Source: an uncultured Prochlorococcus sp. (GTDB lineage: Bacteria; Cyanobacteriota; Cyanobacteriia; PCC-6307; Cyanobiaceae). Taken from it: DNA of 45,349 bases. Within the stretch, counting starts at the first letter, position 1; each line of letters begins with the position of its first letter. The notes under the pieces are model-generated. The model did not search any database and was not told the DNA's origin. It saw nothing but the letters and a program-made list of their open reading frames with translations. Shown here piece after piece: positions 14,325 to 38,183 of the stretch. Location of the stretch: the NCBI GenBank assembly GCA_902591865.1, contig CACJCK010000010.1:1-45349 (forward strand), written 5' to 3'. A program made the position numbers and the translations under genes.

Positions 14325-14338
14325 TAAATAGAAAAATC

Positions 14339-17962: not shown

Positions 17963-18519
17963 GTATCTTAAATGCAATAAAGTGGAGGCTAGTTATTCCT
18001 AAATTAAGTAGAATAAAATTATTAGTCTTAGATGTTGATGGAGTTCTTACTGATGGAGGACTATTCTATACACCAAATGGCGATGTAATAAAAAGATTTG
18101 ATGTTAAAGATGGTTTAGGAATTAAATTACTTCAAGAGTCTGGGATTGAAGTTGCTTTTCTTAGTGGAGGATTAGGAGGCTCAACTGAACTAAGAGCATC
18201 ACATCTAAAAATAAAAAAGTGTTTTTTTAATGTAAAAGATAAATCTTCCACCCTTAGAGAACTGCAACAAGAATTAGGAATAAGCAAAGAGAATACTTGT
18301 TATGTAGGAGATGATTTAAACGATTTAGTAGTAAAATCCTTTGTAAAATTTTTTATCGTTTCTAACAATGCCCCCATTGAGCTCAAAAGGCTGGCAACAT
18401 GTACTTTGAAAAATAGCGGGGGGTATGGAGCAATCAGAGAAATATCTGATAAGATTTTGCAGTCAAAAAATTTGTTAGACAATTACTATAAAGTTGGCTG
18501 GATAAATAATAATATTTAA
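17959..18519 (+). CDS. kdsC: Kdo-8-phosphate phosphatase
   Basis: A 186-residue HAD-superfamily phosphatase of the capless C0 KdsC type. The nucleophile and acid are D25 and D27 in [15 protein letters not shown] follows as motif II, and VGDDLNDL is the C-terminal acidic metal motif. It hydrolyses Kdo-8-P to Kdo. It is translationally coupled to kdsD through a 4-nt overlap and lies 43 nt before kdsA. Confidence 0.93.
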
Positions 18520-18562
18520 AATTAGAATTAATTGTGGTATTTTAATTGGGTATTTAAATTCT

Positions 18563-19396
18563 ATGAATCCATTAAAGCTAATAGCAGGCCCTTGTGTAAT
18601 TGAGAACAAAGATTTGGTTTTTTTAATTGCCCAAAAAGTTGTTGAATTATCAAAAAAATACCCAATAGAATATATATTTAAAGCAAGTTTTGATAAGGCG
18701 AATAGAAGCTCCTGTAGTACATTCAGAGGACCAGGACTAGATAAAGGACTAGAAATATTAGATGATGTAAAAAGAAAGTTTAAAATAAAGGTTCTAACAG
18801 ACATTCATGAAGTTACTCAACCCCAAAGAGTAGCGGATGTAGTAGATGTTCTTCAGATCCCAGCATTTTTATGTCGACAGACAGATTTACTAGTATCAGC
18901 AGCAAAAGCTGTAGAAGGAACCAACAAAATAATTAATATTAAAAAAGGTCAATTTTTAGCTCCATGGGATATGTCGCAAGTTGTTAAAAAATTTGAAGAA
19001 AATGGTATTTCTCCAAATAGCGGGAATCTCTGGTTAACAGAGCGCGGTAGTTCTTTTGGATATAATACTTTAGTTGTTGATTTTAGAAGTTTGCCGCAGA
19101 TGAAAGTCTTTGGTTGTCCCATAATTTTTGATGCCACGCATTCGGTTCAGCAACCTGGAGGCAGAGGTAATAGCAGTGGGGGCCAAAGAGAATTTGTTGC
19201 GCCATTAGCAAGAGCTGCTGCTGCTGTTGGAATAGATGGTATTTTTATGGAAGTTCATCCTAACCCTGAAGAAGCCTTAAGTGATGGCCCAAACATGGTC
19301 CCTTTAAACAAATTAGAAGGTTTAATTAAAGATATAATTAACATTAGAGACGCTGTAGGAGATAATGCCTCTTCTTCTTCAATGGAAATGACATGA
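18563..19396 (+). CDS. kdsA: Kdo-8-phosphate synthase (metal-dependent class)
   Basis: A 277-residue KdsA that condenses PEP with arabinose-5-P. Motifs are [75 protein letters not shown] and [11 protein letters not shown]. Cys11 sits where metal-dependent KdsA proteins such as the Aquifex enzyme have the metal-ligand Cys, whereas E. coli has Asn, so this copy is predicted to be metal-dependent. Its stop overlaps the next start (ATGA). Confidence 0.95.
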
Positions 19397-20109
19397 GTAA
19401 TACTAGTCCAATACCAATATATATAGGATACGACCATAGGGAGAGAGCAGCAACAAATGTTTTAATTGACTCCCTTTATCAGAGAAGCTCTAAAACAATA
19501 AGTATTACTCCATTAATTACGAGTCAATTAAGAGAAGCAGGACTTTATACCAGAGAAAGAGATCCCAAACAAAGTACTGATTTTTCATTTACGAGATTTT
19601 TAGTGCCTTATTTACAGAATTATCAAGGATGGGCCATATTTATGGATTGCGATATGCTTTGCAGACGAGATATTGATGAGCTGTGGAAACAGAGAGATGA
19701 TCAATTTGCATTAATGTGCGTCAAGCATGAACACATTCCATCAGAAAAAACAAAGTTTCTTGGTGAGATACAAAGTGCTTATCCAAAAAAAAATTGGAGC
19801 TCCTTGATGTTAATGAATTGTGAAAAATGTAAGAATCTGACATTGAATAATGTTAATAATGCTTCTGGGCTAGAGCTTCATAGGTTCATATGGCTTGGGG
19901 ATGATAATTTAATAGGTAGTATTCAAGGTGGGTGGAATTTTTTAATTGGAGAGCAAGAACTCAATTTAGATGATCACAATAGTACAAATCCACCACTAGT
20001 TCATTGGACTCTTGGAGGACCATGGTTTAATGAACAAAGAAATTTAAAATCAAGCCTCAACAAAGAATGGTTTGATTACAGAAACGAAATAATTAAACTT
20101 TGGGATTAA
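19393..20109 (+). CDS. Glycosyltransferase-like protein with DxD motif (GT8-like)
   Basis: A 238-residue protein without signal peptide or membrane segment. [14 protein letters not shown] at the N-terminus and [18 protein letters not shown] (a DxD-type metal/nucleotide-sugar motif) resemble GT-A glycosyltransferases of the GT8/glycogenin-like group. Late HWTLGGPWF resembles the HxxGxxKPW-type motif of that group. It is inserted between kdsA and kdsB, overlapping the former by 4 nt and lying 6 nt before the latter, so it is co-translated with Kdo synthesis and may use CMP-Kdo or add a sugar next to Kdo (inference). Confidence 0.65.
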
Positions 20110-20115
20110 TTTTTG

Positions 20116-20940
20116 ATGAAATTTGTTCTAGCGATACCTGCCAGGCTTGAATCAAAAAGATTACCTAATAAAGCTATATTAGATATTGAAGGTAAGCCAA
20201 TGATTCAAAGAGTTCTTGAAAGGTGCCAGGAAACTTCCGAGGAAATTTCTTTAGTTCTTTGCACTGATAATGAAAAACTAGCAAAAGTAGCAAAAGAAAT
20301 AAATATAAATGTTTTACAGACATCTAAAGAATGCAATTCAGGAACGGATCGTATAGCTTCAGTCATTAATAAACTAATTTTTATGGCTTGGGGTAAAAAA
20401 AATGAGAAATTAGATTTAGATGAAAGATCATTACTAGAACAGACTTACATTATAAATGTCCAAGGTGATCAGCCTTTAATAGATCCCGAAATAATTGACA
20501 AAATGATAAGGGAGTTTAAGAAAAAAAATAATGACTACAAAATTATCACTCCTGTGTATAAATTATCATACGAGAATATACATAATCCATCCGTTGTTAA
20601 AACACTTCTAACACATGATGGGAGAGCTATATATTTTTCTCGAGCTGCTATTCCTTTTATAAGAGATGTTTCTCCGGACAACTGGCATAAACTTACAAAT
20701 TATTGGGGACATGTGGGTATTTATGGTTTTAGAGCTGATATACTAAAAAATTGGCCTAACTTACCTTCTTCTCAATTAGAAAATCTAGAGAAACTAGAAC
20801 AATTAAGATTATTAGATTATGGATACACAATAAATACTTTTAAAGTTAACAAGCCCTCTATTTCAGTTGATACGATTGAACAACTTGAAGAGGTTAGAAA
20901 ACTAGTTAGAGAATTTAATTTACAAAATTCTCTAACTTAA
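20116..20940 (+). CDS. kdsB: CMP-Kdo synthetase (3-deoxy-manno-octulosonate cytidylyltransferase)
   Basis: A 274-residue protein starting at the ATG at 20116; the TTG at 20113 is rejected. It has the nucleotide-binding IPARLESKRLPNKAI, IDGKPM-like IEGKPMIQRV, SGTDRIA, INVQGDQPLIDPEII, AIYFSRAAIPF and HVGIYGFR. It activates Kdo with CTP. Between SGTDRIASVI and INVQGDQP there is an insertion of about 30 charged residues compared with the usual family. It completes the kdsD-C-A-B set in one operon. Confidence 0.93.
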   Translation: MKFVLAIPARLESKRLPNKAILDIEGKPMIQRVLERCQETSEEISLVLCTDNEKLAKVAKEININVLQTSKECNSGTDRIASVINKLIFMAWGKKNEKLDLDERSLLEQTYIINVQGDQPLIDPEIIDKMIREFKKKNNDYKIITPVYKLSYENIHNPSVVKTLLTHDGRAIYFSRAAIPFIRDVSPDNWHKLTNYWGHVGIYGFRADILKNWPNLPSSQLENLEKLEQLRLLDYGYTINTFKVNKPSISVDTIEQLEEVRKLVREFNLQNSLT

Positions 20941-21454: not shown

Positions 21455-22135
21455 ATGAAATTATTTACTATTGTAAAATCGAATTCAGAGAGAATACCAA
21501 ATAAAAACTTTCAGCTTATTTCTAAAAGTCAACCTTTATGGAAGTGGACAATTAATAAATTAAGGTCAAAAGAAAATAAGATTTTTATAAACACAGATAA
21601 TGAAGATGTTTTAAATGAAATTAAAAATGATGATGATATTGTTGGAATAAAAAGAGATGAAAAACATATCATGTGGGAAAAAAATAGCAGAAATCAAGGG
21701 TCCCCAGTTGAGTCAATGTATAAGGAATTTTGTGAAAAATATACTTCGAATCAAAATGAAATAGTTTGTCTTTTTCACGTTACTTCTCCCTTTATAAATT
21801 TTGAAACTATTAAAAATGCATCTGAATATCTTGATAAAGGCTTTGATTCTGTTCAGTCCGTAAAAAAGATACAAGATTTTGTATTTTTTAATGATAATGG
21901 TAACTTTAAACCCATAAATTTTAATCCTGATTTAGTACAAAGGACACAAGATCTTGTTCCAATTTATATTTCATTAGGCGCATTCTTTTTAGGCAGATCT
22001 GGAGAAATTATTAAAACTGGCAGAAGGCTACCAGGCAGGTGCTTTAACTATGAACTTAATTCTATTGAATCAATAGAAATAGATGAATATGATCAACTCG
22101 AATTGTCAAGAATAGTAGCTAAAAGTCTTAAATAA
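21455..22135 (+). CDS. CMP-sugar-acid synthetase (NeuA/PseF/LegF-like cytidylyltransferase)
   Basis: A 226-residue cytidylyltransferase starting at the ATG at 21455, preceded 7 nt upstream by AGGAAAG, one of the few good ribosome sites in the window; a TTG at 21449 is rejected. It has KSNSERIPNKNF (CTP-binding loop), INTDNEDVL, HVTSPFI, SVQSVKKIQDF and QRTQDLVPIYISLGAFF, as in acylneuraminate cytidylyltransferases. It is distinct from KdsB, so the island activates a second nine- or eight-carbon ulosonic acid or a related 2-keto acid. No neuB/pseI/legI synthase is in the window; the aldolase next door may replace it. Confidence 0.82.
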   Translation: MKLFTIVKSNSERIPNKNFQLISKSQPLWKWTINKLRSKENKIFINTDNEDVLNEIKNDDDIVGIKRDEKHIMWEKNSRNQGSPVESMYKEFCEKYTSNQNEIVCLFHVTSPFINFETIKNASEYLDKGFDSVQSVKKIQDFVFFNDNGNFKPINFNPDLVQRTQDLVPIYISLGAFFLGRSGEIIKTGRRLPGRCFNYELNSIESIEIDEYDQLELSRIVAKSLK

Positions 22136-22185
22136 ATTTTTTTTATTGTAGCGTGGTTTAAATTTTTAACCTTAAAATTTATAAA

Positions 22186-23163
22186 ATGATGGATATATTG
22201 AATTTAAACACTTATAAAAATAAAAAACTAAACATAATTGATGTAACTCTAAGAGATGGAGCACATCAAGTTAACTTTGATTGGCCAGATGAATATTCAA
22301 AAAAGCATATCAAATTGCTTTCTAAATCTAAAGATATAAATTTTATTGAATTAGGTTATTGGAAGCAAACTGCAAAGTCAGAAAATCCATTTTACAAGAT
22401 GGATGAAAATTTTTTAAATAAACTTGCAGAAAATAAATCACAATTTAGCAAATTTTCATTGATGGTAGATTGTCATTATTGTAGTCATGAATCTTTCGAA
22501 TATCCTTCTGAAGATGAATTCGGTATCGGGCTTTTCAGAGTATGTTCAAGATCCGAAGATATAGAGCAGGCAACAAAGCTTGGAGAAATGATTAAAAAAA
22601 GGACTGGTGCAAAATTAAGTATGAATTTCTTCAATATAACTAATTACTCCGAAAAAGAACTTAAGAATTGCATAAATTTGGCTTCTAATGCAGGTGCAGA
22701 CTTTATATATTTTGCAGATACACATGGCACCTTAGATTTAATCAAAGAATATGAGAAATACTCCGTTTTTTCATCAATGATCCAAGAAAAAAATATTATT
22801 CCTGGATTCCATTTACATGACCACTCTGGCAAAGCTTACCTAAATTATAGACTCCTACCATATTTAGGCTTTGGCTCAACTGATGTTTCTTTATCTGGAA
22901 TGGGAAAAGGTGATGGAAATTTAAAGTTGGAATTTGTTATCAATCCAAATGATAATCCTGAAATATTTGACCTCCTTGAAGAAAATAGAGAATTATTATC
23001 AATGAATCCAACTTCATTTGGTATTATAAGTTCCTTTTACTCTATTACTGATTACTACGCCCTCGAAGCAATTAAAAATAATTTAAAACCAAGTGAATTT
23101 TTATCCAAGGCTATTGAAATAGGAGGTAAAGATAAAGATAACTATAAAAAAGGAATTATATAA
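22186..23163 (+). CDS. DRE-TIM metallolyase, pyruvate aldolase type (4-hydroxy-2-oxovalerate aldolase-like)
   Basis: A 325-residue HMGL-like TIM barrel. It has IIDVTLRDGAHQVNF with R23, D24 and a His27 placed as the catalytic His of DmpG-type aldolases. It also has FIELGYWK, GFHLHDHSGKAY with metal ligands H209/H211, and LSGMGKGDGNLKLEF, matching the GxGxGAGNxxLE segment of the family. Family members make or cleave 4-hydroxy-2-keto acids with pyruvate. Beside a CMP-ulosonate synthetase, condensation of pyruvate with a sugar aldehyde is an attractive role, but untested. Its stop abuts the start of the SDR with no gap. Confidence 0.78.
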   Translation: MMDILNLNTYKNKKLNIIDVTLRDGAHQVNFDWPDEYSKKHIKLLSKSKDINFIELGYWKQTAKSENPFYKMDENFLNKLAENKSQFSKFSLMVDCHYCSHESFEYPSEDEFGIGLFRVCSRSEDIEQATKLGEMIKKRTGAKLSMNFFNITNYSEKELKNCINLASNAGADFIYFADTHGTLDLIKEYEKYSVFSSMIQEKNIIPGFHLHDHSGKAYLNYRLLPYLGFGSTDVSLSGMGKGDGNLKLEFVINPNDNPEIFDLLEENRELLSMNPTSFGIISSFYSITDYYALEAIKNNLKPSEFLSKAIEIGGKDKDNYKKGII

Positions 23164-23847
23164 ATGCAAAATATTTTAATAACTGGAATTACAAAAGGTT
23201 TAGGTTTCCAACTAGCACAAAATTCTCTGGAAAGAGGATATAACGTAACTGGGATAAGCAGAAATAAATCTTCAATAAATACATCAAATATTTTATGTGA
23301 CTTGGGAGATTTAAAAAATCTAAATTATATCTTAGGAAAGGAACCAAATTTAAAAAAAGATTTTGATACCATTATTTTAAACGCAGGTACATTAGGGGAT
23401 ATTAAAAATGCAAGAGAAGTGACAAATCAAGAACTATTGCAATCATTAAATGTCAACTTTTTCGCAAATAAATTGATTATTGATCACTTTTTAAAAAACT
23501 CTAATTTTACTAAACGCTTTATTTTTATATCTAGTGGTGCAAGTACTAAGGGATATACTGGCTGGCTTTCATATTGTTGTTCAAAAAGCATTTCTGATTC
23601 CTTGATTAGGGTTTATGCAAAAGAACATCAAAAACATATTTTTATATCCATTTCACCTGGAGCTATTAACACTTCAATGCAAAAATCAATACAGACTACA
23701 GACATTAATCAATTCCCAGATATGAAGAAGTTTATTGAACTAAATGAAACAAGTAGTTTACGATCCCCGAAAGAGGCTTCAATAAAAATTATTGATCATA
23801 TCGAAAAAGTTTCTTACAGCGATTCAGGAATGTTCTTAAAAATTTAG
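23164..23847 (+). CDS. Short-chain dehydrogenase/reductase
   Basis: A 227-residue classical SDR. It has ILITGITKGLGFQLA (TGxxxGxG), LNAGTLG, FISSGAS (catalytic Ser), YCCSK (YxxxK) and SPGAINTSM. It begins directly after the aldolase stop, so the two are coupled. In context it could reduce the ulosonate or its aldehyde precursor. The substrate is not readable from sequence. Confidence 0.8.
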   Translation: MQNILITGITKGLGFQLAQNSLERGYNVTGISRNKSSINTSNILCDLGDLKNLNYILGKEPNLKKDFDTIILNAGTLGDIKNAREVTNQELLQSLNVNFFANKLIIDHFLKNSNFTKRFIFISSGASTKGYTGWLSYCCSKSISDSLIRVYAKEHQKHIFISISPGAINTSMQKSIQTTDINQFPDMKKFIELNETSSLRSPKEASIKIIDHIEKVSYSDSGMFLKI

Positions 23848-23885
23848 TATCGTTCTAAATAATAATATTTTAATTTTGTAATTAA

Positions 23886-23915
23886 TTGCGTAGCTACATA
23901 AGATGAATCTATATT
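23886..23915 (+). promoter_or_regulatory. Possible sigma70-type promoter before the arabinose-lipid operon
   Basis: TTGCGT at 23886-23891 and TATATT at 23910-23915, spaced 18 nt, lie 23 nt upstream of the predicted TTG start. The 91-nt gap is the largest between 20940 and 31975. The hexamers are imperfect and A/T-rich DNA gives chance matches. Confidence 0.3.
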
Positions 23916-23938
23916 AGTTAAAGTTTATACATTGAAAA

Positions 23939-24856
23939 TTGTCTTATAAAAGGTTTATTAAAGATCTTATTATTGCTGGAAGACCTAAACAATGGACAAA
24001 AAATTTATTGGTATTTCCTGCATTAATTTTTAGTGAAGATTATGATAACTATATTTGGCTGGTAGCAATAATAACTTTTATTTGCTTTTGTATTATATCA
24101 AGTTCAATTTATTTCTTGAATGATTCATTAGATGTAGAAGAGGACAAGAAACACCCCACTAAAAAATTTAGAATTATTGCCTCAGGCAAAATTTCTATAA
24201 GATCAGCGAGACTAATATCAGTTTTTTTAGCCTTATTTAGTTTATCATTAGCTCTTTTATTCTCTGTAAAAATATCTTTAGCTCTTCTTATATACGCTAT
24301 TATTCAAATTTTTTATTGCTTTGTTTTCAAAAAGATTCCTTTATTGGATATTTTTTGTATTGCATCGGGATTCTTAATTAGATCAATTTCAATTGGATTA
24401 GCTTCAACTTTATTTATATCTCCATGGTTTGTTTTAACAGTAGGTCAATTATCTCTATTTTTGGCTATAGAAAAAAGAAAAGCAGAATTGCTAATTTCTA
24501 AAAGCAAAAATCAAATCCCAACTAGAATAGTATTAAAGAGGTATTCTTATCCTTTGCTCCTGAGGTTAGAGAGTTTAGTAGCTACAAGCACTTTTATTTG
24601 TTATTCATTATGGGCTTCAGGTCCACAATTAAATGGAGCTTCAACAAGTAAAATGCTCATCACAGTCCCATTTGTTCTTGCAGGAATATTTCGGTATCAA
24701 TTATTGAGTGACCCAGAAGAAATAAAAAGAAGGAACAACCAATTAAATATAATTACCACTGAAAAACCAGAAGAAATTCTTCTTCATGATAGGGGTATTA
24801 GGATTATAGTTTTAGGATGGGTGATAATAATAGCATTGATAAGAATAAGTAGCTAG
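23939..24856 (+). CDS. UbiA-family polyprenyl-phosphate phosphoribosyltransferase (DPPR synthase-like)
   Basis: A 305-residue polytopic UbiA-superfamily protein. RPKQWTKNLLVFPAL and YFLNDSLDVEEDKKHPTKK, with the NDxxDxxxD metal/diphosphate motif and the HPTKxFR run, match mycobacterial Rv3806c, which transfers 5-phosphoribose from PRPP to decaprenyl phosphate. It is the first gene of a six-gene same-strand run containing homologues of the remaining pathway steps. The start is TTG at 23939, with no ATG candidate or clear ribosome site nearby, so the exact start is uncertain. The polyprenol here is probably undecaprenol or another C50-C55 lipid (inference). Confidence 0.87.
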   Translation: MSYKRFIKDLIIAGRPKQWTKNLLVFPALIFSEDYDNYIWLVAIITFICFCIISSSIYFLNDSLDVEEDKKHPTKKFRIIASGKISIRSARLISVFLALFSLSLALLFSVKISLALLIYAIIQIFYCFVFKKIPLLDIFCIASGFLIRSISIGLASTLFISPWFVLTVGQLSLFLAIEKRKAELLISKSKNQIPTRIVLKRYSYPLLLRLESLVATSTFICYSLWASGPQLNGASTSKMLITVPFVLAGIFRYQLLSDPEEIKRRNNQLNIITTEKPEEILLHDRGIRIIVLGWVIIIALIRISS

Positions 24857-24865
24857 ATTTTAAAA

Positions 24866-26395
24866 ATGTCGATTTCAGTATTTGATTTTGATGGAACACT
24901 CTTAAAAGGAGATAGCCTATTAATAGCTGCGAGGCAATCTAATAAAGAAATTCTTTTTTTATGGTATTTGTTGAGAATCGTTCCATATTATTTTAAATAT
25001 AAATTAAATCTATTATCAACGAAGAAATTCAAAGAAAAGTTTATTGAGATTTTTAATTTATGTTCAATCGACCAAAGTACAAAGATCAAAGAAAAAGTCA
25101 AAACACAAATTATTTCTAGAATCGAACCCAAAGCATTAGATCGTCTTTATTGGCACAAAAAAAAGGGGGATAGAGTAATTATTTGCTCTGCTTCACCAAA
25201 TTTTATCCTAGAACCAATTGCTGATTATTTAAAAGTTGAACTTGTTTGCACGGAATTCATGAAAAAAAATGGAATATTAATCCCAAAAATAAAAGGTGAA
25301 AACTGTAAAGGTGTAGAAAAAGTCCTCAAACTAGAAAAGTTTTTAAACAATAAACTAAGTGACTTAGATATTGAAGCATATGGAGATAGCGCTGGTGATC
25401 AACAATTATTAGAAATTTCAAAAAAACCTCATTATAGAGACTTCACATCAAAAATTTCAGCATATCCTAAATTCCCTTTTAAGACATTATTAAATGTATT
25501 ATTAATATCTATAATTTTTTATATATATATTTTTTTTTCTAGTAAAGAAAACTTAATCTCAACTTTAATCGAAATAAAGCTTGAAGTCTTAATTGGCTTA
25601 TCAATAGTTCTCTTAGGTTATTTTTTAAGATACATAAGATGGAGAATTTTAATTAAAAAACTTAATATAAAAAGCCCTTTAAAAACTGATTTAAGAATAT
25701 GGATGAGTTCATATGCTTTTACCGCCACTCCTGGGAAAGCTGGCGAAGCCATAAGATCCTTACTCCTTAATAAAGAATTAAATATAAGTTATCCCTTATC
25801 AATAACTGCTTTGTTTTTTGAGAGATTTACTGATGGAATTGCGGTTTTTGTAATTCTATTATTTAATGCTAAATCAATAAGTTATAGTCATTTACCTTTT
25901 AAAGTTGAATATCTTTTAAGTATCTTTCTATTTATTGTATTAATAGCTTTTTATAAAAAAAGATACTTATTTAATTTGTTAGAAAAAATTTTAAATTTAT
26001 TTCCAAAAACAGTATTTAATTCTATTACAAAAAACAAAGAAAACTTAAAAAAGTTATTTGATTCAAAAATTTTGTTGATTTCTATATTTCTAGCAACTAT
26101 TTCATGGTCATTAGAAGGATATTCACTTTCTTTGATATTGAATAAAATTTCTGCAAAAAATTTTAGTTTTGGAATCTCTCTAATCTCTCATACTTTATCA
26201 GGATTTTTAGGAGCCATATCAATGATTCCTGGTGGGATAGGAAGTTCAGAAATATCGAATATCACTTTACTTTCTATAAATGGAGTTTCTACTGCTAATG
26301 CTGTACTAGCAACCCTAATTATAAGACTAATGACTCTTTGGTTTGCAACATTTCTTGGTGTTTTATGTTTGTATTGGGGCTATTATAAAAAATGA
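24866..26395 (+). CDS. Fusion: HAD-IB phosphatase + flippase-like (LPG-synthase TM-type) membrane domain
   Basis: A 509-residue two-domain protein. Residues 1 to about 200 are a HAD-IB phosphatase: FDFDGTLLKGD (D7, D9), CSASPNF (motif II) and YGDSAGDQQLL (metal motif). Residues about 208-509 are a membrane domain of the lysylphosphatidylglycerol-synthase/AglD flippase-like type, with FLRYIRWRILIKKL, ATPGKAGEAIR, FFERFTDG and SMIPGGIGSSE. In context the phosphatase would remove the 5-phosphate from polyprenyl-P-ribose-5-P, and the membrane part could translocate the lipid-linked pentose. In many bacteria a similar HAD domain is fused to UbiA itself, so fusion to a flippase-like domain is notable. 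Substrates are inferred from neighbours. Confidence 0.82.
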   Translation: MSISVFDFDGTLLKGDSLLIAARQSNKEILFLWYLLRIVPYYFKYKLNLLSTKKFKEKFIEIFNLCSIDQSTKIKEKVKTQIISRIEPKALDRLYWHKKKGDRVIICSASPNFILEPIADYLKVELVCTEFMKKNGILIPKIKGENCKGVEKVLKLEKFLNNKLSDLDIEAYGDSAGDQQLLEISKKPHYRDFTSKISAYPKFPFKTLLNVLLISIIFYIYIFFSSKENLISTLIEIKLEVLIGLSIVLLGYFLRYIRWRILIKKLNIKSPLKTDLRIWMSSYAFTATPGKAGEAIRSLLLNKELNISYPLSITALFFERFTDGIAVFVILLFNAKSISYSHLPFKVEYLLSIFLFIVLIAFYKKRYLFNLLEKILNLFPKTVFNSITKNKENLKKLFDSKILLISIFLATISWSLEGYSLSLILNKISAKNFSFGISLISHTLSGFLGAISMIPGGIGSSEISNITLLSINGVSTANAVLATLIIRLMTLWFATFLGVLCLYWGYYKK

Positions 26396-26414
26396 ATTTT
26401 TTATAAAAACACAA

Positions 26415-27155
26415 TTGAACAAAAATTTCCCTATTAAAAAAGCATTTGTTATGGGTAGCACAAGCACAATCGCGCAACAAATATGTATGGAACTTGCCCT
26501 TAAAGGATGTAAACAGTTCTTTTTATTAGCGAGAGATGAAAAAAAAAATAATATTTTTGCGAAAAATCTTGAGCTCAAGTTTAATGTCAAAATAATAAAA
26601 AAAATAATTGATTTAAATCAAATTTCTGAACTAGATCCGCAAACAAAAAAGGATATTAATGATTATGATCTTTACCTTTTATCTGCAGGATACCTTGGCA
26701 ATACTGAATTAGCGAATAATAATTTAGAAGAATCTAAAAAAATTACACTAGTGAATTTTTATTCATTGCTACCTTGGTTATTACAAATAACAACAAAAAA
26801 AAGACTTAATTCAAAAGGGAGACTTTGGATATTAACTTCAGTTGCAGGAGATAGAGGAAAACCATCTAATTATCAATATGGTGCAGCAAAATCTGCTTTA
26901 ACAATTTTTTGCGAAGGTATTTTATTGAGATGCATAAACAAACCGTTCGCAGTGCGCATTATCAAAGCTGGCTTTATTAAATCACCAATGACAAAAGATA
27001 TCAAACCAAGTTTCCTTTGCACAAATCCTAGTTTGATGGCAAAAAAACTTTTAAAAAACCCTAACAAAAGAGGAATACATTATTTCCCTTGGTGGTGGAA
27101 ATGGATTATGTTTGTGATAAAAATCGCCCCAGAATCAATTATTGCTAAGCTATAG
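26415..27155 (+). CDS. dprE2: Polyprenyl-phosphoryl-2-keto-ribose reductase (DprE2-like SDR)
   Basis: A 246-residue SDR counted from the TTG at 26415. An ATG at 26392 is out of frame, and a TTG at 26343 would lie deep inside the preceding gene. It has AFVMGSTSTIAQQI (cofactor loop), LLSAGYLG, ILTSVAGDRGKPSNYQYGAA with the YxxxK Tyr/Lys just after, and a C-terminus (WWWKWIMFVIKIAPESIIAK) resembling DprE2, whose tail also has a membrane-associated hydrophobic segment. DprE2 reduces the keto intermediate made by DprE1 to polyprenyl-P-arabinose. It is one base before dprE1; in mycobacteria the two also adjoin, in the opposite order. Confidence 0.83.
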   Translation: MNKNFPIKKAFVMGSTSTIAQQICMELALKGCKQFFLLARDEKKNNIFAKNLELKFNVKIIKKIIDLNQISELDPQTKKDINDYDLYLLSAGYLGNTELANNNLEESKKITLVNFYSLLPWLLQITTKKRLNSKGRLWILTSVAGDRGKPSNYQYGAAKSALTIFCEGILLRCINKPFAVRIIKAGFIKSPMTKDIKPSFLCTNPSLMAKKLLKNPNKRGIHYFPWWWKWIMFVIKIAPESIIAKL

Positions 27156-27156
27156 T

Positions 27157-28506
27157 ATGAATGAATGTATCGTTTCAGGTTGGGGTCTAACTAATCCAGT
27201 TTCAGTTAGACAATCTTTTCCAAAAAGTATTGAGGATTTAGAAAATTTAATAAATTCGGCGCATCCAAAATCAATAATTACAAGAGGTCTAGGGAGATCA
27301 TATGGAGATGCAGCTCAATTGGAGAAAGCAAATGTTGTTCGAATGGATAATTTTAGTTTTATTGATTTAAAAATTGAAAAGAACGAAGTTACTACTGGAT
27401 CTGGAATAAGTTTTGATAAACTTTTGAATTATATTATTCCAAAGGGATTTTTCATACCAGTTTCTCCGGGGACTAGATATGTAACAGTTGGAGGCGCTAT
27501 TGCCTCTGATGTACATGGTAAAAATCATCATGTTGATGGTAGTTTCGGAAACCACGTAAAATCAATCTTAATTCTCAATGGAAATGGAGAACTACAACGG
27601 CTTAATAAATCCTCCCCAAGAGAAATTGAAAGAAAACAATTTTGGGCAACTATTGGCGGTATGGGTCTTACTGGGGTAATAATTGAGGCCACATTTGAGT
27701 TAATACCGATTGAAACATCCTTAATAAATTTATTTACAAGAAACTTTGAGAATATTGATTTACTTTTGGAAGCTATGATAGAAGCTGATAAAGAATATAG
27801 ATATAGTGTAGCTTGGATAGATAGTCTTCATCCTAATTTAAGAGGTATTCTTTCATGTGGAGATCACGCACTACTAACTGATATAAATGGTAAAAATAAG
27901 AAAAATCCTTTAGAAAAGATTCAAGATCATAATACGAAAGCTCCAAATTATTTCCCAAGAGGTTTGATGAATAATTTTACTATAAAAATATTTAATGAAG
28001 GTTGGTATAGAAAATCAATCACGGCAAAAAAGCATAATATTGAGACAATAGGTAAGTTCTTTTATCCACTTGATGCAATCAAAAATTGGAACAGAATTTA
28101 TGGATCTGATGGATTTGTTCAATATCAATTCGCTATTCCTGATAAAAAAGTTGAATTAATTTTAGATTTTTTAAGAAAGCTTCAGGATAATAAAATTCCA
28201 AATTTTCTCCCAGTCTTAAAAAGATTTGGTGATTTTAAAAATGGCCATTTATCTTTTCCAATTAAAGGTTGGACTTTAGCAACTGATATTCCAGCAAATT
28301 ATGAAATCGCAATGGAATTACTCGACGATTTTGATGAAAAGATTGTTGATGCTGGGGGCAGGATATATTTATCAAAAGATGCAAGACAAAAAAAAGAAAC
28401 TTTTAAAAAAACCTATGAAAGATATTCAGAATGGAAACAAATTAAAAATGAAATGGACAAAAACAATATTTTTTCTTCATCACTTGCAGAAAGATTAGAA
28501 CTTTAA
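27157..28506 (+). CDS. dprE1: Polyprenyl-phosphoryl-ribose 2-oxidase (DprE1-like FAD enzyme)
   Basis: A 449-residue VAO-type flavoprotein starting at the ATG at 27157. It follows mycobacterial DprE1 along its length: VSGWGLTNPV, RGLGRSYGDAAQ, SPGTRYVTVGGAIASD, HGKNHHVDGSFGNH (active-site His region), FWATIGGMGLTGVI, GWYRK, WNRIYGSDGFVQYQFAIP, KRFGD and the ending SSLAERLEL. The lysine equivalent to K418 is present (K407 in GGRIYLSKDAR). The position equivalent to Cys387, the residue trapped by benzothiazinones, is Ala375 in GWTLATDIP. The enzyme oxidises C2 of the lipid-linked ribose, the first half of epimerisation to arabinose. Confidence 0.9.
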   Translation: MNECIVSGWGLTNPVSVRQSFPKSIEDLENLINSAHPKSIITRGLGRSYGDAAQLEKANVVRMDNFSFIDLKIEKNEVTTGSGISFDKLLNYIIPKGFFIPVSPGTRYVTVGGAIASDVHGKNHHVDGSFGNHVKSILILNGNGELQRLNKSSPREIERKQFWATIGGMGLTGVIIEATFELIPIETSLINLFTRNFENIDLLLEAMIEADKEYRYSVAWIDSLHPNLRGILSCGDHALLTDINGKNKKNPLEKIQDHNTKAPNYFPRGLMNNFTIKIFNEGWYRKSITAKKHNIETIGKFFYPLDAIKNWNRIYGSDGFVQYQFAIPDKKVELILDFLRKLQDNKIPNFLPVLKRFGDFKNGHLSFPIKGWTLATDIPANYEIAMELLDDFDEKIVDAGGRIYLSKDARQKKETFKKTYERYSEWKQIKNEMDKNNIFSSSLAERLEL

Positions 28507-28531
28507 TGTAAACTTAATAAAAAGTTTGTTT

Positions 28532-30178
28532 ATGAAAAAATATAATTATATTTTTTGGATCTTTCTTCTGATACCTGTCTCTTTATTAGTTCTTCTTTTC
28601 TTTCAATTTACTGTTGATGATGCATACATAACTTATAGGCATAGTTTCAATCTTTTTCAAAATGGTAATTTATCTTGGAATAATTTTGGTAGTAAAGAAG
28701 AAGCATTTTCAAATCCTCTTTTTGTAATTCTGGGGGGATTAGGAATAAAAATGGGTTTAAAACCTGAGTTACCCATAAAAATTTTTAATTTATCAATCCT
28801 TATATTTTGGTTTCTTAGAGTAAAAGGATTAGTAAAAAGATTATTTTTCTCACAAAAAGCAATTATTTATACTTTTTTCTTTTGGTCATTCCCTGTATTT
28901 ATTCATGCTTTTTCAGGACTTGAAACTTTTTTCTTTAGCTTTTTATTATTTGAATATCTAAATTCAATTTACATAGGAAATCAAAAAACCATTACTATAT
29001 CTTCTATTTTATTAATCACAAGACCTGAAGGTTTGTTGTTCTTTTTGACTTCATTAACTGGACTTCTTTATTCAAAGATTACAAACAAATTAAATACCAA
29101 AAATGTAAAAAAGAATTTTAAAATTTTATTAGCAATTATAATTCCAATCATTTCATTAATAATCCTGATTTATAAGATACATTTTTTCGGTGATTTTTTT
29201 CCAAATACGTACTATGCCAAAAGCAGTTCCAAAACCTTCGTTTCCATTTTAAAGAATTCTAGATCTAACTTATCTTCATCATTACCTTGGGTCTTTATGA
29301 CATTTTTATGCTTCGACTTTAATAAAAAAATTTCTAAAGACATATTTAATTCAATTTTGAAATATGGCCCATTTTTTGTGATCTATTTTTTATATCTTCA
29401 GTCTGCTTTGGCAATGAACTACGCAGATAGATTTTGGTTCCAATTATTTTGGCCACTAATAATTTACTTTATAGCTAACAACAAGAATATATTTATAGTG
29501 AGTATCTCTTTTATCAAAAAAATAATTTTTAACCCTAAAAAAATTAAAAAATTATTATTAGTTTTAATTTCATCTATATGGGCTATCAAGTCTGTTTCAC
29601 TAGCATATGTAAAGGATCCTGACGATACTCCCATTAGATTAGTTAGTAGTTTTGGTAGAATAGTAAGATCTAGAGCAGTTCTAGGGAAAGAAATTGACAG
29701 AATTTTGCCAAATGATGTAAAGATAGTTATTGGTGACGCAGGGCTTCTTGGTTATTACGCAAATAGGCAAGCTTACGACTATTTAAAACTTGGAACAAAA
29801 GAAATTGCAAAGAATGGCCTAACCCAAAAATTTCTCGAAAAAGCAAATCCTGACGTATTTATCCTATATGGTTTCAATAAAGATAAAAAAGGTGCATGTG
29901 ATGAAAAAGATACCAGATATCTTATGCATAAAGAAGAGATTAAATTTATAAGAAAAAATAATTTAAAATTTATTGGCGGCTTTGTTCAGCATCCAAATAA
30001 ATGCCAAAATATTTACGCAAAAAGTGATTTAGTTAACCTATTTAAAGATAAAAAATTTATTTCTTTGATGCATGCATCAGAAAAAAATCATAGGAGCATT
30101 TTAAATGGAACAATAGACGATATTTTATATTCTTATAAATATATTTTTCTACCCTCAAGAAATTTACCGAAATCATAA
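28532..30178 (+). CDS. Polytopic arabinofuranosyltransferase-like GT-C enzyme (AftB-like)
   Basis: A 548-residue membrane protein, started at the ATG at 28532. Near the N-terminus it has VDDAYITYRHSFNL and EEAFSNPLF, the acidic DD motif and following NPL that resemble AftB-type transferases. ITRPEGLLFF and FFGDFFPNTYYAKSSSK are further close matches to the family signature. About ten hydrophobic segments are followed by a soluble C-terminal domain of about 200 residues, as in periplasmic GT-C enzymes. Located directly after dprE2-dprE1, it is the natural user of polyprenyl-P-arabinofuranose, adding Araf outside the inner membrane. The acceptor is unknown. Confidence 0.75.
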   Translation: MKKYNYIFWIFLLIPVSLLVLLFFQFTVDDAYITYRHSFNLFQNGNLSWNNFGSKEEAFSNPLFVILGGLGIKMGLKPELPIKIFNLSILIFWFLRVKGLVKRLFFSQKAIIYTFFFWSFPVFIHAFSGLETFFFSFLLFEYLNSIYIGNQKTITISSILLITRPEGLLFFLTSLTGLLYSKITNKLNTKNVKKNFKILLAIIIPIISLIILIYKIHFFGDFFPNTYYAKSSSKTFVSILKNSRSNLSSSLPWVFMTFLCFDFNKKISKDIFNSILKYGPFFVIYFLYLQSALAMNYADRFWFQLFWPLIIYFIANNKNIFIVSISFIKKIIFNPKKIKKLLLVLISSIWAIKSVSLAYVKDPDDTPIRLVSSFGRIVRSRAVLGKEIDRILPNDVKIVIGDAGLLGYYANRQAYDYLKLGTKEIAKNGLTQKFLEKANPDVFILYGFNKDKKGACDEKDTRYLMHKEEIKFIRKNNLKFIGGFVQHPNKCQNIYAKSDLVNLFKDKKFISLMHASEKNHRSILNGTIDDILYSYKYIFLPSRNLPKS

Positions 30179-30184
30179 ACAAAA

Positions 30185-31975
30185 ATGAATTTGAAAAAGG
30201 AGAAAAATATAAATACTTTTCAAATTATTGAAGATCTCTGGAGAATAATAAGTTTAAAAAGAAAATATCAACTTTCTTTTTTATTATTATTAATGTTCCT
30301 AAGTGGTTTAGGAGAGAGTTTTACATTAGGTGCAATAGTACCCTTACTAAAATTGTTTGATAATAATGAACAATTTCCTAATTTAACTTTTTTGAAAAAC
30401 ATTAATGAAGATATTTATAGTACTTATTTGAACAATCCGTTAATTTTTATAGTTTTTCTCTTTATATTCATTCTTTCATGCTCTGTAATAATTAGAATTC
30501 TTAATCTTTTTTTTAGCAGCTACATATCAGGATTAATTGGGAATGATTTAAGTACTATCGCATTTAAAAAAACAATATATAAGTCATATCTAGAAATTTC
30601 ACAAATGAATAGTAACTCTCTAATAAATGCCATAACAAGTCAAGTAAAAATTACTATTAATGGGATATATGGGATTTTACTACTAATTAGTTCATCAATA
30701 ATTGTTTCAGGCATATTTATATCAATGCTAATTTATAACGCGAAAATTACATATATTTTATTTTTTTCATTTATTTTCATCTATGTTTCTCTATTCCAAT
30801 ACTTAAAAAAGAAACTTTATTTAAATGGGTCAAATGTAGCAAAAATAGCAAAAAATCAAATCCAACTTATAAGAGAAATATTAGGTGCTCTAGATGTAAT
30901 AACCCTTAACAATTTCAGAAATAAATCAGTCTCTAGATATTACGCAATGGATATTAAGATGCGTTTCTCTATGGCACAAAGTATTTTCTTTGCCGCATTT
31001 CCAAGATACTTAATAGAGAGTCTGGCATTAATAATATTTGCCATAATAGGACTTGGCATATCAAAGAGCGGAGGCTCATCAGATTCTATAGAGATTTTAG
31101 GTTTTTTTGCTTTTGCGGCACAAAGATCACTTCCCGCTATTCAACAAATATATGGCTCAGCAGCCTCATTTTCATATCAGAAGAAAGGAATTAAAGAACT
31201 TCTCGCTCAAGTGAATCAAAATAGTTCAGAAATTAAAATTCATAATTTTGAGAATAAAAGATCTAGTGATAAATCAATTATGAGTAATTTTCATTTAGAT
31301 TCTTTAATTATAAAAGATATTAGCTTTAAATACCCAAAACAAAAAGAAAGTTGTCTGACTGATATAAATCTTGAAATACTTAAAGGCGATAAAATTGCTC
31401 TAGTAGGTAAATCAGGAGCAGGTAAAAGTACTTTATTAAAATTATTATTAACATTTATAAAACCGACAAAAGGGGTTTTTTTATTAAACGATATAGATCT
31501 ATATAAAAATGAAAATATCGACTTACTTTTAAATTTCAGAGATGTAATTTCCTACGTCCCTCAGAAAATATATTTGTTTAATGATACGATAAAAAATAAT
31601 ATTGCGTTAAATTCCAAATCTTTTGGTGTAGAAAAACAAATTATTAAAGCGGCAAAAATAGCTGGCATTCATGAAACAATCATAAAATTGCCTTATGGAT
31701 ATGACACTATTGTTGGGGAGGAGGGTGCACTTCTAAGTGGTGGTCAAAGGCAAAGGATTGCTGTTGCTAGATCAATTTATAAAGAATCCCAAATCATAAT
31801 TTTGGATGAGCCTACAAGTTCAATTGACAGTATTACGGAAGACTTAATATTAAATGATATTTTTACTTATTTTAAAAACAAAGTTATAATTATCGTAGCT
31901 CATAACAATAAAATTAAAGCTATGTGTAATAAGATTTTTACTTTAAAAGATGGTTCTTTATTTTCTCAAGATTAA
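30185..31975 (+). CDS. ABC exporter, fused permease-ATPase (PglK/MsbA-like lipid-glycan flippase)
   Basis: A 596-residue half-transporter. About six membrane segments lie within residues 25-310. The nucleotide-binding domain has LVGKSGAGKSTLL (Walker A), SYVPQKIYLFNDTI (Q-loop), LLSGGQRQRIAVARS (signature), IIILDEPTSSID (Walker B and D-loop) and VAHN (switch His). It lies 6 nt after the AftB-like gene and before a terminator, as last gene of the arabinose-lipid operon. A role in flipping a lipid-linked oligosaccharide is likely from context; export of another lipid or peptide cannot be excluded. Confidence 0.85.
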   Translation: MNLKKEKNINTFQIIEDLWRIISLKRKYQLSFLLLLMFLSGLGESFTLGAIVPLLKLFDNNEQFPNLTFLKNINEDIYSTYLNNPLIFIVFLFIFILSCSVIIRILNLFFSSYISGLIGNDLSTIAFKKTIYKSYLEISQMNSNSLINAITSQVKITINGIYGILLLISSSIIVSGIFISMLIYNAKITYILFFSFIFIYVSLFQYLKKKLYLNGSNVAKIAKNQIQLIREILGALDVITLNNFRNKSVSRYYAMDIKMRFSMAQSIFFAAFPRYLIESLALIIFAIIGLGISKSGGSSDSIEILGFFAFAAQRSLPAIQQIYGSAASFSYQKKGIKELLAQVNQNSSEIKIHNFENKRSSDKSIMSNFHLDSLIIKDISFKYPKQKESCLTDINLEILKGDKIALVGKSGAGKSTLLKLLLTFIKPTKGVFLLNDIDLYKNENIDLLLNFRDVISYVPQKIYLFNDTIKNNIALNSKSFGVEKQIIKAAKIAGIHETIIKLPYGYDTIVGEEGALLSGGQRQRIAVARSIYKESQIIILDEPTSSIDSITEDLILNDIFTYFKNKVIIIVAHNNKIKAMCNKIFTLKDGSLFSQD

Positions 31976-32084
31976 TGTTATATTTATCTTGCTTATTTTT
32001 TTTGGACTTTAAATGCTTAACCATTTAGCTTTCTCAGATAATATTTTCGATTTTGCAAAAAAATATCAAAAAATTTGTAAAAAA

Positions 32085-32123
32085 AGCCTTGAGAAAAAAA
32101 GTTTTTTAGAGAGGCTATTTTTT
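32085..32123 (+). terminator. Rho-independent terminator after the arabinose-lipid operon
   Basis: AGCCT (32085-32089) pairs with AGGCT (32112-32116), and A-run/T-run bases inside the arm (AAAAAA with TTTTTT) extend the stem. Six Ts follow at 32118-32123. It lies 110 nt after the ABC gene stop. Confidence 0.6.
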
Positions 32124-32229
32124 CAAATTTAAAAAAGTTATTAAACTCATTGATTCCATCAACAATATTAACCTGAATTCCTAAACTAAAAATCTTTATA
32201 AAAGATCTTTATCCATTCACTTTAAAATA

Positions 32230-33027
32230 ATGAAACACATTCTTAAAAAAATTGGAAGAATATTAAAAAAATTTTTTTTAATAAATGTAATTAATCACTT
32301 AAATAAATATAGATATGCAGTAAATAATCATTACGGATCCTCAAAAGAAGTCTCATTATTATATGAAGAATATAAAACTGAGTTGAATGATCAAAAATTT
32401 TTTGAACTCATATCAGAAATATATAGAAATTATTCAATCGATGATAAAAGTTTTGTGGAACCAAGAATTATCTCTAAATATAATGATGAAAAGGTTTGGG
32501 ATCAATACTTAAAGAGAAAAACAGGAGAACATTACAGATTACTAATTACTATTTTAAAAATAATTAAATCAAAAAAATTTTTAGAAATTGGTACCTTCAG
32601 AGGTGCATCCGCAAAAGTTATACTAGAAAATTATCCAATTGAAAAAATTCATACTTTCGATTTAATTCCATGGGATAAATTTGATGGCACCTTTCTAGAA
32701 AAAAGAGATTTTGAAACTGGTAAAATATCTCAACATATTGATGATTTAAGTAAAAAAAGAGTTTTTGAGAAATATCATCAAGAGATTCTAGAAAGTGACT
32801 TTATATTTATTGACGGACCCAAAAACTACAATTTTGAAAAGCAATTTCTAAAATACCTTTTTAATTTTTTAGAAAATCATAAAAAAGGAATGACAATAAT
32901 CCTACTTGATGATGTGAAACTTTCAACAATGTGTCAAATCTGGAGATCTATAGATCATCCAAAAGTAATATTAGATTTAGTAGGACATTGGAGTGGATCA
33001 GGATTAATTATGATAGATAATTCATAA
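32230..33027 (+). CDS. Class I SAM-dependent methyltransferase-like protein
   Basis: A 265-residue soluble protein. The first about 100 residues are basic and unrecognised. From about residue 118 it has FLEIGTFRGASAKVILENYP (glycine-rich SAM-binding loop), IHTFDLIPWD (acidic residue after strand 2) and DFIFIDGPKNYN, followed by IILLDDVK. This fits the methyltransferase_24/cephalosporin hydroxylase-like group often found in glycan clusters, where members O-methylate sugars. Its start follows a terminator, so it probably begins a new transcript. Confidence 0.65.
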   Translation: MKHILKKIGRILKKFFLINVINHLNKYRYAVNNHYGSSKEVSLLYEEYKTELNDQKFFELISEIYRNYSIDDKSFVEPRIISKYNDEKVWDQYLKRKTGEHYRLLITILKIIKSKKFLEIGTFRGASAKVILENYPIEKIHTFDLIPWDKFDGTFLEKRDFETGKISQHIDDLSKKRVFEKYHQEILESDFIFIDGPKNYNFEKQFLKYLFNFLENHKKGMTIILLDDVKLSTMCQIWRSIDHPKVILDLVGHWSGSGLIMIDNS

Positions 33028-37209: not shown

Positions 37210-38166
37210 ATGCCGCAAATTTTTATATACCTAATAACTTCATTACTTATTAGTCATATTTTTTTAACTTTTACATTTCCATATTTAAAAAAAAACAATC
37301 TTGATATACCTAATAAAAGATCCTCTCATATCGAGCCAAAACCAAAGAGTGGAGGTATTTCATTTGTTTTAACTTCAATAATTGGTGCATTTTTAGACTA
37401 TTTTATAAATGGTTTTAATTTTTCAATTTATTCAATATTAATTTGCTTTCCGTTAGCGATAATGGGCTTTATAGATGATAAATATAATATTAAGGTTAAT
37501 TTTAGATTTGGTTTTCAGATTTTTACAGGGATTTTGATTTTAAAATCATTTATAAATAACAATAACGACACAAGAATAATACTTATTCCATTGATATTAA
37601 TAACCATAATATCAATAATAAATTTTGTGAATTTCATGGATGGAGTAGATGGTATGGTTGCAGGATGCATGATTATTAGTATCGCTACTCAGAATTTAAG
37701 ACTAAATAGTAACTTGTCTATTTGGTTTTTAGTAGGAGGATTAATTGGATTTCTTTTTTGGAACTGGAATCCAGCTAAAATATTTATGGGTGATACTGGA
37801 AGCACATTCCTAGGAGCTATATTTGCAGCTCTTGCCTTAAATCAAGAATCTTTATATCAATCTTTCTTTTCAATGTTTTTAGCTTTCCCTATATTGAGCG
37901 ATGCATTTTTCTGCGTAATAATAAGATATAAAAACAAACAAAATATTTTCCAACCCCATAAGTCGCATCTTTACCAAAGACTTCATCAATCCGGATGGCC
38001 ACACTATAAAGTATCTTTATTATATATTTCAGGAACTTTACTATGTTCAATTTCTTATTTAATATTAGGTGTTAAAGGATTAATATTGATTACAATTATA
38101 GAGTTTTGCATTGGAATCTTCTTAGATAAGTATTATGCCAAATCATTTGCAAAATCAATCAATTAA
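37210..38166 (+). CDS. Polyprenyl-phosphate HexNAc-1-phosphate transferase (WbpL/WecA/MraY-like)
   Basis: A 318-residue polytopic PNPT-family enzyme. Motifs are DIPNKRSSHIEPKPKSGG, GFIDDKYN (acidic metal motif), NFVNFMDGVDGM, NWNPAKIFMGDTGSTFLG and QPHKSHLYQRL. The RSSH-PxPxxGG and HKSH segments match WbpL-like enzymes more than WecA of enterobacteria. It starts a glycan by linking a UDP-N-acetylhexosamine derivative to undecaprenyl phosphate. The adjacent WbpM-like dehydratase makes such UDP sugars, the same pairing as in Pseudomonas B-band O-antigen clusters. Confidence 0.9.
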   Translation: MPQIFIYLITSLLISHIFLTFTFPYLKKNNLDIPNKRSSHIEPKPKSGGISFVLTSIIGAFLDYFINGFNFSIYSILICFPLAIMGFIDDKYNIKVNFRFGFQIFTGILILKSFINNNNDTRIILIPLILITIISIINFVNFMDGVDGMVAGCMIISIATQNLRLNSNLSIWFLVGGLIGFLFWNWNPAKIFMGDTGSTFLGAIFAALALNQESLYQSFFSMFLAFPILSDAFFCVIIRYKNKQNIFQPHKSHLYQRLHQSGWPHYKVSLLYISGTLLCSISYLILGVKGLILITIIEFCIGIFLDKYYAKSFAKSIN

Positions 38167-38183
38167 ATATTAAAGTTTAAATA

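Follow-up and report, generated by a model that had tools for sequence, protein, structure and literature searches.

A run of six genes in the genome of an uncultured Prochlorococcus sp. (GCA_902591865.1) is probably a laterally gained cassette with which a picocyanobacterium makes and exports lipid-linked D-arabinofuranose. The run occupies positions 23939-31975 of the DNA that was analysed (contig CACJCK010000010.1, positions 1 to 45,349; the whole stretch of 45,349 nucleotides is called the window here). The six genes are unbroken, lie on the + strand and are separated by intergenic gaps of 1-19 nt. Their order is a UbiA-family polyprenyl-phosphate 5-phosphoribosyltransferase (PPPRS), a HAD phosphatase fused to an LPG_synthase_TM domain (HAD-LPG), DprE2, DprE1, a GT-C-like membrane protein and an ABC exporter. 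A previous account of this DNA, made without database searches (the sequence-only reading), had described five consecutive genes and an ABC exporter here, laid out as one run in a cyanobacterial setting. Both points hold, and the genus of the window belongs to the family of Cyanobium usitatum. The most interesting part of the locus is the flippase-like fusion, which had been overlooked and whose flippase-like domain may be the transporter long sought for lipid-linked D-arabinofuranose.

The first gene (23939..24856, + strand, TTG start) encodes a PPPRS of the Rv3806c type, an enzyme that uses phosphoribosyl pyrophosphate (PRPP). Its product passes the NCBIfam model NF008978 for decaprenyl-phosphate phosphoribosyltransferase (218.8 bits, cut-off 207), and the sister models NF008976 and NF008977 score below their cut-offs. 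In a phmmer search of the PDB, the solved Rv3806c structure 8j8j is matched at an expectation value (E) of 3.4e-39, and chains of Rv3806c are the sole matches at E 0.001. The lipid, Mg or PRPP contacts of Rv3806c include R22, K28, N73, D77, K87, R90, Y138 and K143 (PMC10994848). All eight of these checked contacts are kept in the phmmer alignment, namely as R15, K21, N61, D65, K75, R78, Y126 and K131. The activity predicted for the enzyme is the transfer of ribose-5-phosphate from PRPP to polyprenyl phosphate.

The second gene (24866-26395, + strand) encodes the fusion protein, in which Pfam delimits HAD at residues 5-183 and LPG_synthase_TM at residues 216-498. The N-terminal HAD-IB phosphatase domain (residues 1-205; 24866..25480, + strand) matches PF12710 (E 2.9e-29) and TIGR01490 (112.6 bits, cut-off 98.3), and its motifs DFDGT with the catalytic Asp, SAS, K148 and GDSAGD are intact. 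This domain is the predicted 5'-phosphatase of polyprenyl-phosphoryl-ribose-5-phosphate. The sequence-only reading was right in recognizing a HAD phosphatase and missed the C-terminal fusion partner (25511..26359, + strand), a COG0392/YbhN, MprF-flippase-like domain that scores 123.3 bits against PF03706 (cut-off 33.4) and 78.5 against TIGR00374 (cut-off 43.2).

The third gene (26415..27155, + strand) encodes a DprE2-type reductase of the short-chain dehydrogenase/reductase (SDR) family. Its start is unsure between TTG 26415 and TTG 26343, of which the former appears to agree better with the starts of its relatives. The solved DprE2 21gq_C is its top PDB match (E 1e-10), and it carries the SDR centre YGAAK at 164 (S/Y-x3-K). 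Searching with the window DprE2 recovered an SDR close to DprE1 in 76 of the 79 non-cyanobacterial loci L052-L130, almost all of which are actinobacterial; a control SDR, encoded just upstream of the operon, recovered none. The fourth gene (27157..28506, + strand) encodes a DprE1-type oxidase dependent on flavin adenine dinucleotide (FAD). It matches the solved DprE1 4aut at E 7.1e-94 over residues 7-449, that is the full length, and aligns with NF053785 over residues 6-449 of 449. The FAD and substrate motifs are kept, with H120-G-K-N-H, Q322, Q324 and K407-D invariant in 16 sequences. Residue 375 (28279-28281) is Ala (GWTLATDIP) where solved DprE1 has Cys (GWNVCVDFP). This cysteine is the target of benzothiazinones, and a natural benzothiazinone insensitivity would be expected from the Ala.

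The matches of these proteins to families and PDB entries confirm the UbiA, DprE2 and DprE1 types that had been proposed for the locus, and they support the four steps from PRPP to polyprenyl-phosphoryl-D-arabinofuranose. In this pathway, PPPRS would transfer 5-phosphoribose from PRPP to polyprenyl phosphate and the HAD domain would take off the 5'-phosphate. DprE1 would then oxidise C2' of polyprenyl-phosphoryl-ribose, and DprE2 would reduce the keto-intermediate to polyprenyl-phosphoryl-D-arabinofuranose. The LPG_synthase_TM domain may flip this lipid sugar over the inner membrane, and the GT-C-type protein would then add D-arabinofuranose to a surface glycan outside. The reactions proposed for this organism, the flipping of the lipid sugar, its acceptor and linkage, and the direction of transfer are inferences from the genes. 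Such a pathway does not imply a D-arabinan; single side groups of arabinofuranose are no less likely.

The LPG domain is a candidate flippase for a polyprenyl-phosphoryl-pentose. There is about an even chance that HAD-LPG is a bifunctional phosphatase-flippase, a single chain that both commits the lipid-linked pentofuranose and exports it, and the first flippase of the MprF/YbhN type to be marked genetically for polyprenyl-phosphoryl-D-arabinose (or its ribose precursor), within a pathway that picocyanobacteria acquired from aquatic actinobacteria. COG0392 is entitled 'Predicted membrane flippase AglD2/YbhN' and includes GpgF of P. aeruginosa, the activity of which is not demonstrated in that source (PMC12713373). 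A structure model of the fusion was built from two sequences and has a mean pLDDT of 54. VIA-align superposes its residues 233-508 and the flippase domain of MprF (6lvf residues 65-325) with Z 17.3, rmsd 4.8 and 240 aligned residues, a margin that is moderate because helical models without a clear match reach a typical best Z of 14. Further matches are also to MprF (9j8s, Z 16.3; 7duw, Z 15.5), and the next-ranked ones are HAD proteins on the other half of the fusion (Z up to 10.2). Foldseek alone ranked MprF 37th for the same model (E 0.035).

The association of the domain with DprE1 was tallied over 34 cyanobacterial loci (the window, L017-L034 and L131-L145), within 9 kb of DprE1, with hidden Markov models of LPG and GtrA that were built from the same loci and hence match their members by construction. 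LPG was found in 14 of the loci and GtrA in 16. Ten of these 14 have LPG as a HAD fusion (the window, L018, L019, L022, L131-L135 and G096, whose ends lie on two contigs), and LPG is free in L023, L025, L027 and L141; L131 and L132 carry the fusion and a second, free LPG. By these models both LPG and GtrA are absent from the 79 loci L052-L130, which may reflect the narrowness of the models, and no GtrA match was obtained in the window genome, which is 72% complete. Among 339 cyanobacterial genomes, matches covering both domains of HAD-LPG (E up to 1e-20, beyond which fusions would escape this search) occur in six, all of them bearing DprE1; the match in G582 covers the second domain in part. 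In G325, only LPG is present, next to DprE1, and no DprE1 match is listed for G301 (LPG) and G532 (HAD). Had the five fusion genomes other than that of the window been picked at random, the chance of all falling among 15 of 385 DprE1 genomes would be p 4e-8, which is too small owing to kinship; the five span three families, and the samples of 386 and 339 genomes from the phylum were drawn separately. With the independent Pfam model PF03706 at a threshold of at least 50 bits, 13 of 200 genus genomes were matched, seven of them in DprE1 loci (p 3e-5, uncorrected for kinship). A tree of 18 LPG domains, which omits L051 (the same as L133), fragments under 220 aa including L017, and L150, falls into two groups in which fused and free forms interleave, and well-supported branches force at least four changes. 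Phosphatase and LPG thus seem to have been fused and separated repeatedly, as is expected of partners in one process.

The fifth gene (28526..30178, + strand) was assigned by hydropathy and motif and is likely a GT-C transferase. The protein has 11 predicted transmembrane (TM) segments at a loose hydropathy threshold and four at a stricter one; residues 31-32 form a DD motif within the loop that follows TM1, and the C-terminus is a soluble domain of ~190 aa. McAftB has 11 TM helices and a cap domain on the periplasmic side, and its catalytic D62 belongs to a DD motif (PMC12041299). The description of AftB with 11 TM segments, a DD in the first outside loop and a soluble cap is thus matched at the loose threshold. 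The sequence searches yielded no match in Pfam or NCBIfam at E 0.001, only chance-level Pfam matches at E up to 10, and none with phmmer at E up to 10 in a PDB copy in which the presence of AftB is unconfirmed. Likewise, no relative was found in plasmids, in viral contigs, in the collected DprE1 loci or by a motif search of these loci, and 244 cyanobacterial genomes gave, besides its own, only four short, stop-riddled matches. A single-sequence model was unusable (mean pLDDT 40.8), and its best VIA-align Z of 5.2 is not meaningful. The gene had been called AftB-like; no sequence method linked it to AftB, and an AftB-like identity, suggested by the topology and the DD motif and not supported by homology, is unproven. 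At other DprE1 loci, none of nine large open reading frames, examined together with one epimerase, exceeded a Pfam GT-C cut-off and one of the nine is Wzz; of three further ones, that of L026 passed PMT_2, and those of L024 and L025 had no match. The three-component pattern is therefore not established for these other DprE1 loci.

The core of the cassette recurs in the genus. Of 200 genus genomes, 19 carry DprE1 (8 of 66 among the high-quality ones), as do, over the phylum, 16 of 386 cyanobacterial genomes and 14 of 142 genera. PPPRS is present in 20 of the 200 genus genomes and shares 18 of these with DprE1; G139 has a broken DprE1 piece and no PPPRS match. The type A layout, with a free PPPRS, is seen in the window and 14 others (G096 is split over two contigs, and G079 is cut by the contig start). 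Across the genus its core retains ~50% identity (DprE1 47-52%, PPPRS 48-54%), and the gene order is kept. The type B layout (L031-L033) consists of a HAD-UbiA fusion and a 134-aa protein counted as GtrA, by a model that includes the type B sequences themselves, followed by DprE1 and DprE2. A PPPRS-type UbiA with no DprE1, LPG or GtrA found nearby lies at L173:9244-10155 and L174:9655-10560 (G055 and G099); these loci are possible ribofuranose systems.

A phylogeny of DprE1 was inferred by maximum likelihood from 69 sequences. All 20 rows from type A picocyanobacteria, of which two are identical, form one clade (100/100). This clade adjoins eight rows, seven labelled as Actinomycetota and one simply as a bacterium, in a joint clade with equal support (100/100). 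Isolate names place most of the eight in lakes, rivers or bays, and all lie inside the wider actinobacterial set. Type B DprE1 groups with other cyanobacteria. For this tree 44 of 113 sequences were thinned out (every third of L065-L130 was kept) and the short L034 was dropped; the root is the midpoint, and the direction of transfer is drawn from the nesting. The nesting of type A DprE1 in Actinomycetota suggests a lateral gain, and a single gain from aquatic actinobacteria fits the tree. DprE1 as a phage gene was considered and rejected, as no match was found in 50,697 phage records. Viral contigs gave none with a single protein and, with the alignment A1, one 123-base edge fragment (L169). 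Plasmids gave 64 DprE1 matches, all below 60% identity, of which Rhizobium, Sinorhizobium or Agrobacterium account for 41, and no plasmid record had a single place covering 80% of the HAD-LPG protein.

Several observations weigh against the assignment of the run to lipid-linked arabinofuranose or of its fusion to flipping. The whole proposal is drawn from genes, the GT-C identity comes from topology and one motif, and absences in a genome that is 72% complete are weak evidence. DprE2 has the NCBIfam DprE2 model NF053786 as its second-best match (81.1 bits, cut-off 250) and scores higher on PRK07102 (158 bits), where the cut-off of 267 is also not reached. DprE1 obtains 453.8 bits from the equivalog NF053785 with its cut-off of 500; as this model is named for the decaprenyl enzyme, the shortfall weakens the NCBIfam equivalog status and not the DprE1-like function. 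The two low scores also count for the view that the end sugar is D-ribofuranose or D-xylofuranose and that the DprE1/DprE2-like pair does something else, as do the PPPRS genes of G055 and G099 and the published systems in which ribofuranose or xylofuranose is made from the same precursor (PMC11127046). This view is nevertheless unlikely, because DprE1 and DprE2 are adjacent and both conserved alongside PPPRS, the DprE1 motifs at H120 and K407 are invariant, and arabinofuranose systems have DprE1/E2 homologues where those for xylofuranose have an ORF13-type epimerase (PMC11127046). Less probable still is that the contig or cassette is decaying or mis-binned foreign DNA and functionless. The long branch of the window DprE1 (0.85) and the want of any relative of the GT-C-like gene in 266 genus genomes speak for decay or foreignness, yet the six genes are unbroken with key residues kept, the window DprE1 groups inside the genus, and related cassettes (DprE1 47-52% identity) occur in many genomes. 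That another sugar gene of the window best matches the genus (up to 63%) is a weak point in the same direction, as other cyanobacteria reach 57%.

A more serious rival, possible though clearly behind the flippase proposal, holds that lipid-linked D-arabinofuranose is made but that LPG is not its flippase; LPG would anchor the phosphatase or serve another lipid, and the ABC exporter or an unlinked protein would flip. LPG and GtrA occur together in 5 of the 34 loci and neither occurs within 9 kb in 9 of the 34, so that not all loci of this kind require LPG. The ABC exporter directly follows the GT-C gene, and the genome may hold other flippases, for example a divergent LPG copy on contig C2 of a type common to most genus genomes. 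The MprF fold match, moreover, rests on a model with a mean pLDDT of 54, the fusion of G540 lies away from DprE1, and six genus genomes have a strong PF03706 copy away from any DprE1. Four of these six copies belong to other subfamilies by the model built here, that of L150 is truncated where its contig stops and was counted for neither side, and that of L146 is of the operon type. Against this rival, the free LPG without HAD in L023, L025, L027 and L141 indicates that anchoring is not the sole use, most of the loci lack an ABC gene, and LPG stands between UbiA and DprE2 with no GtrA within 9 kb in the window, L018, L025, L027, L131 and L132. The orphan LPG of L146 (L146:7393-8364), in a genome that is 63% complete and gave no DprE1 match, lies beside an amine-oxidase-like gene and a GT2. 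This GT2 weakly resembles polyprenyl-phosphate hexose synthases, its matches to dolichyl- and undecaprenyl-phosphate sugar transferases reaching no more than 42.1 bits and staying far under the cut-offs; the pairing of LPG with such a neighbour counts for the main proposal.

The general pathway is already published. Three-component systems use lipid-linked pentofuranose by way of PPPRS, a HAD phosphatase, a MATE flippase and a GT-C of family GT136, and DprE1/E2 homologues are found in the arabinofuranose systems (PMC11127046). The sequence-only reading called lipid-linked D-arabinofuranose best known from mycobacterial cell walls, with some Gram-negative cases; a Gram-negative pathway of this kind is already described as widespread in the same source, in the main text of which the string 'cyanobact' is absent. 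The comparison that the sequence-only reading drew with the mycobacterial steps stands for the Rv3806c, DprE1 and DprE2 types and fails for the phosphatase, which is unlike mycobacterial Rv3807c and like Citrobacter ORF15 (PMC11127046). The window shares with the mycobacterial decaprenyl-phosphoryl-arabinose (DPA) pathway the PRPP-dependent UbiA first step, DprE1, DprE2 and a predicted last step of GT-C type. However, that pathway (Rv3806c, Rv3807c, DprE1, DprE2, then AftA/AftB/Emb) uses the unrelated Rv3807c where the window uses HAD. The window HAD is fused to an MprF-like domain, the lone GT-C-like protein has no detected similarity to AftB, and the polyprenol is presumably not decaprenol.

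Similarly, ORF12-15 of Citrobacter youngae O1/O2 share with the window a lipid-linked pentofuranose from PRPP, a HAD-type phosphatase, an export step and a GT-C-type enzyme near glycan genes. In Citrobacter, HAD is fused to PPPRS and the flippase is MATE, whereas in the window PPPRS is free and HAD is fused to LPG_synthase_TM; none of the six genes has a Pfam match to a MATE family, a search for MATE that was confined to the run. In the comparison with the GT136-type GT-C of the three-component systems, the window protein shows the topology and the DD motif and has no family match. For the D-arabinofuranose of Pseudomonas aeruginosa pilin and for Azorhizobium noeCHOP, Gram-negative D-arabinosylation with Rv3806c-like enzymes is also proposed (PMC11127046, PMC2443382); the acceptors there are pilin and Nod factor, and the available text of these sources does not mention a HAD-LPG fusion. 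With the flippase domain of MprF and COG0392 AglD2-YbhN, the window LPG has in common a PF03706 score well over the cut-off and the fold match at Z 17.3 from a low-confidence model. It differs from MprF in having no lysyl-phosphatidylglycerol synthase half, in being fused to HAD and in lying inside a lipid-pentose operon. The literature matches listed, with many subscription papers outside their coverage, hold no earlier report of the pathway in picocyanobacteria or of a HAD-LPG fusion, so that these two aspects are new as far as searched.

According to a 2016 review, the mechanism of DPA reorientation was unknown, with evidence for Rv3789 as an anchor instead (PMC5964476), and by 2024 the flippase activity of the proposed proteins was without direct demonstration (PMC11127046). 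The HAD-LPG fusion inside these operons is a concrete candidate for the flippase of polyprenyl-phosphoryl-arabinose and hence for this old gap. The enzymes of the cassette are relatives of tuberculosis drug targets. Few kinds of cell in the sea are as abundant as picocyanobacteria, and D-arabinofuranose on their surface, if true, would face phages and grazers. Likewise, a lateral origin from aquatic actinobacteria, if true, would mean that a cell-envelope trait has passed between co-living plankton.

The sixth gene (30185..31975, + strand) begins 6 nt after the GT-C-like gene and encodes a PglK/MsbA-like ABC exporter that matches NF050066 at E 3e-65 and TIGR02203 at E 3e-64 without reaching either cut-off. 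Its homologues occur in 5 of 18 genus DprE1 loci (one being a cut piece) and in one of seven wider loci, and the exporter is not a constant part of such loci. The run had been thought to be bracketed by promoter-like elements at 23886 and a terminator at 32085. The promoter claim was not sustained, because a consensus scan of 22000-33000 gave 54 sites against 67.4 expected, no better than chance, and listed none at 23886, the nearest + strand site being 23836-23863. The terminator claim holds in part: a terminator-like hairpin lies 3' of the ABC gene (32071..32130, + strand; fold -16.9 kcal/mol, z -3.39 against shuffles), although it has no entry in the consensus scan.

The window is a surface-glycan region, as follows from an RmlA/RmlC/RmlD/RmlB-like dTDP-sugar set with WecA- and FlaA1-like genes (Pfam; 13452-16904 and 37210-40076). 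Upstream of the run there is a full-looking CMP-Kdo gene set (16976-20940) comprising KpsF/KdsD type (16976-17962), KdsC type (17959-18519), KdsA (18563-19396) and KdsB (20113-20940) genes, each over at least one NCBIfam cut-off. The lipopolysaccharide of marine picocyanobacteria has been described as being without Kdo. Among the other DprE1 loci, L135 encodes, 7.7 kb after DprE1, another flavoprotein of DprE1-like type that is more distant (L135:9720-11027; 265.6 bits). Beside DprE1 in L019-L024, L026, L029, L051 and L134, a flavin amine-oxidase-like protein recurs, frequently accompanied by GtrA and an epimerase-like protein of 312 aa; that of L019 matches PRK07233 with 457 bits.

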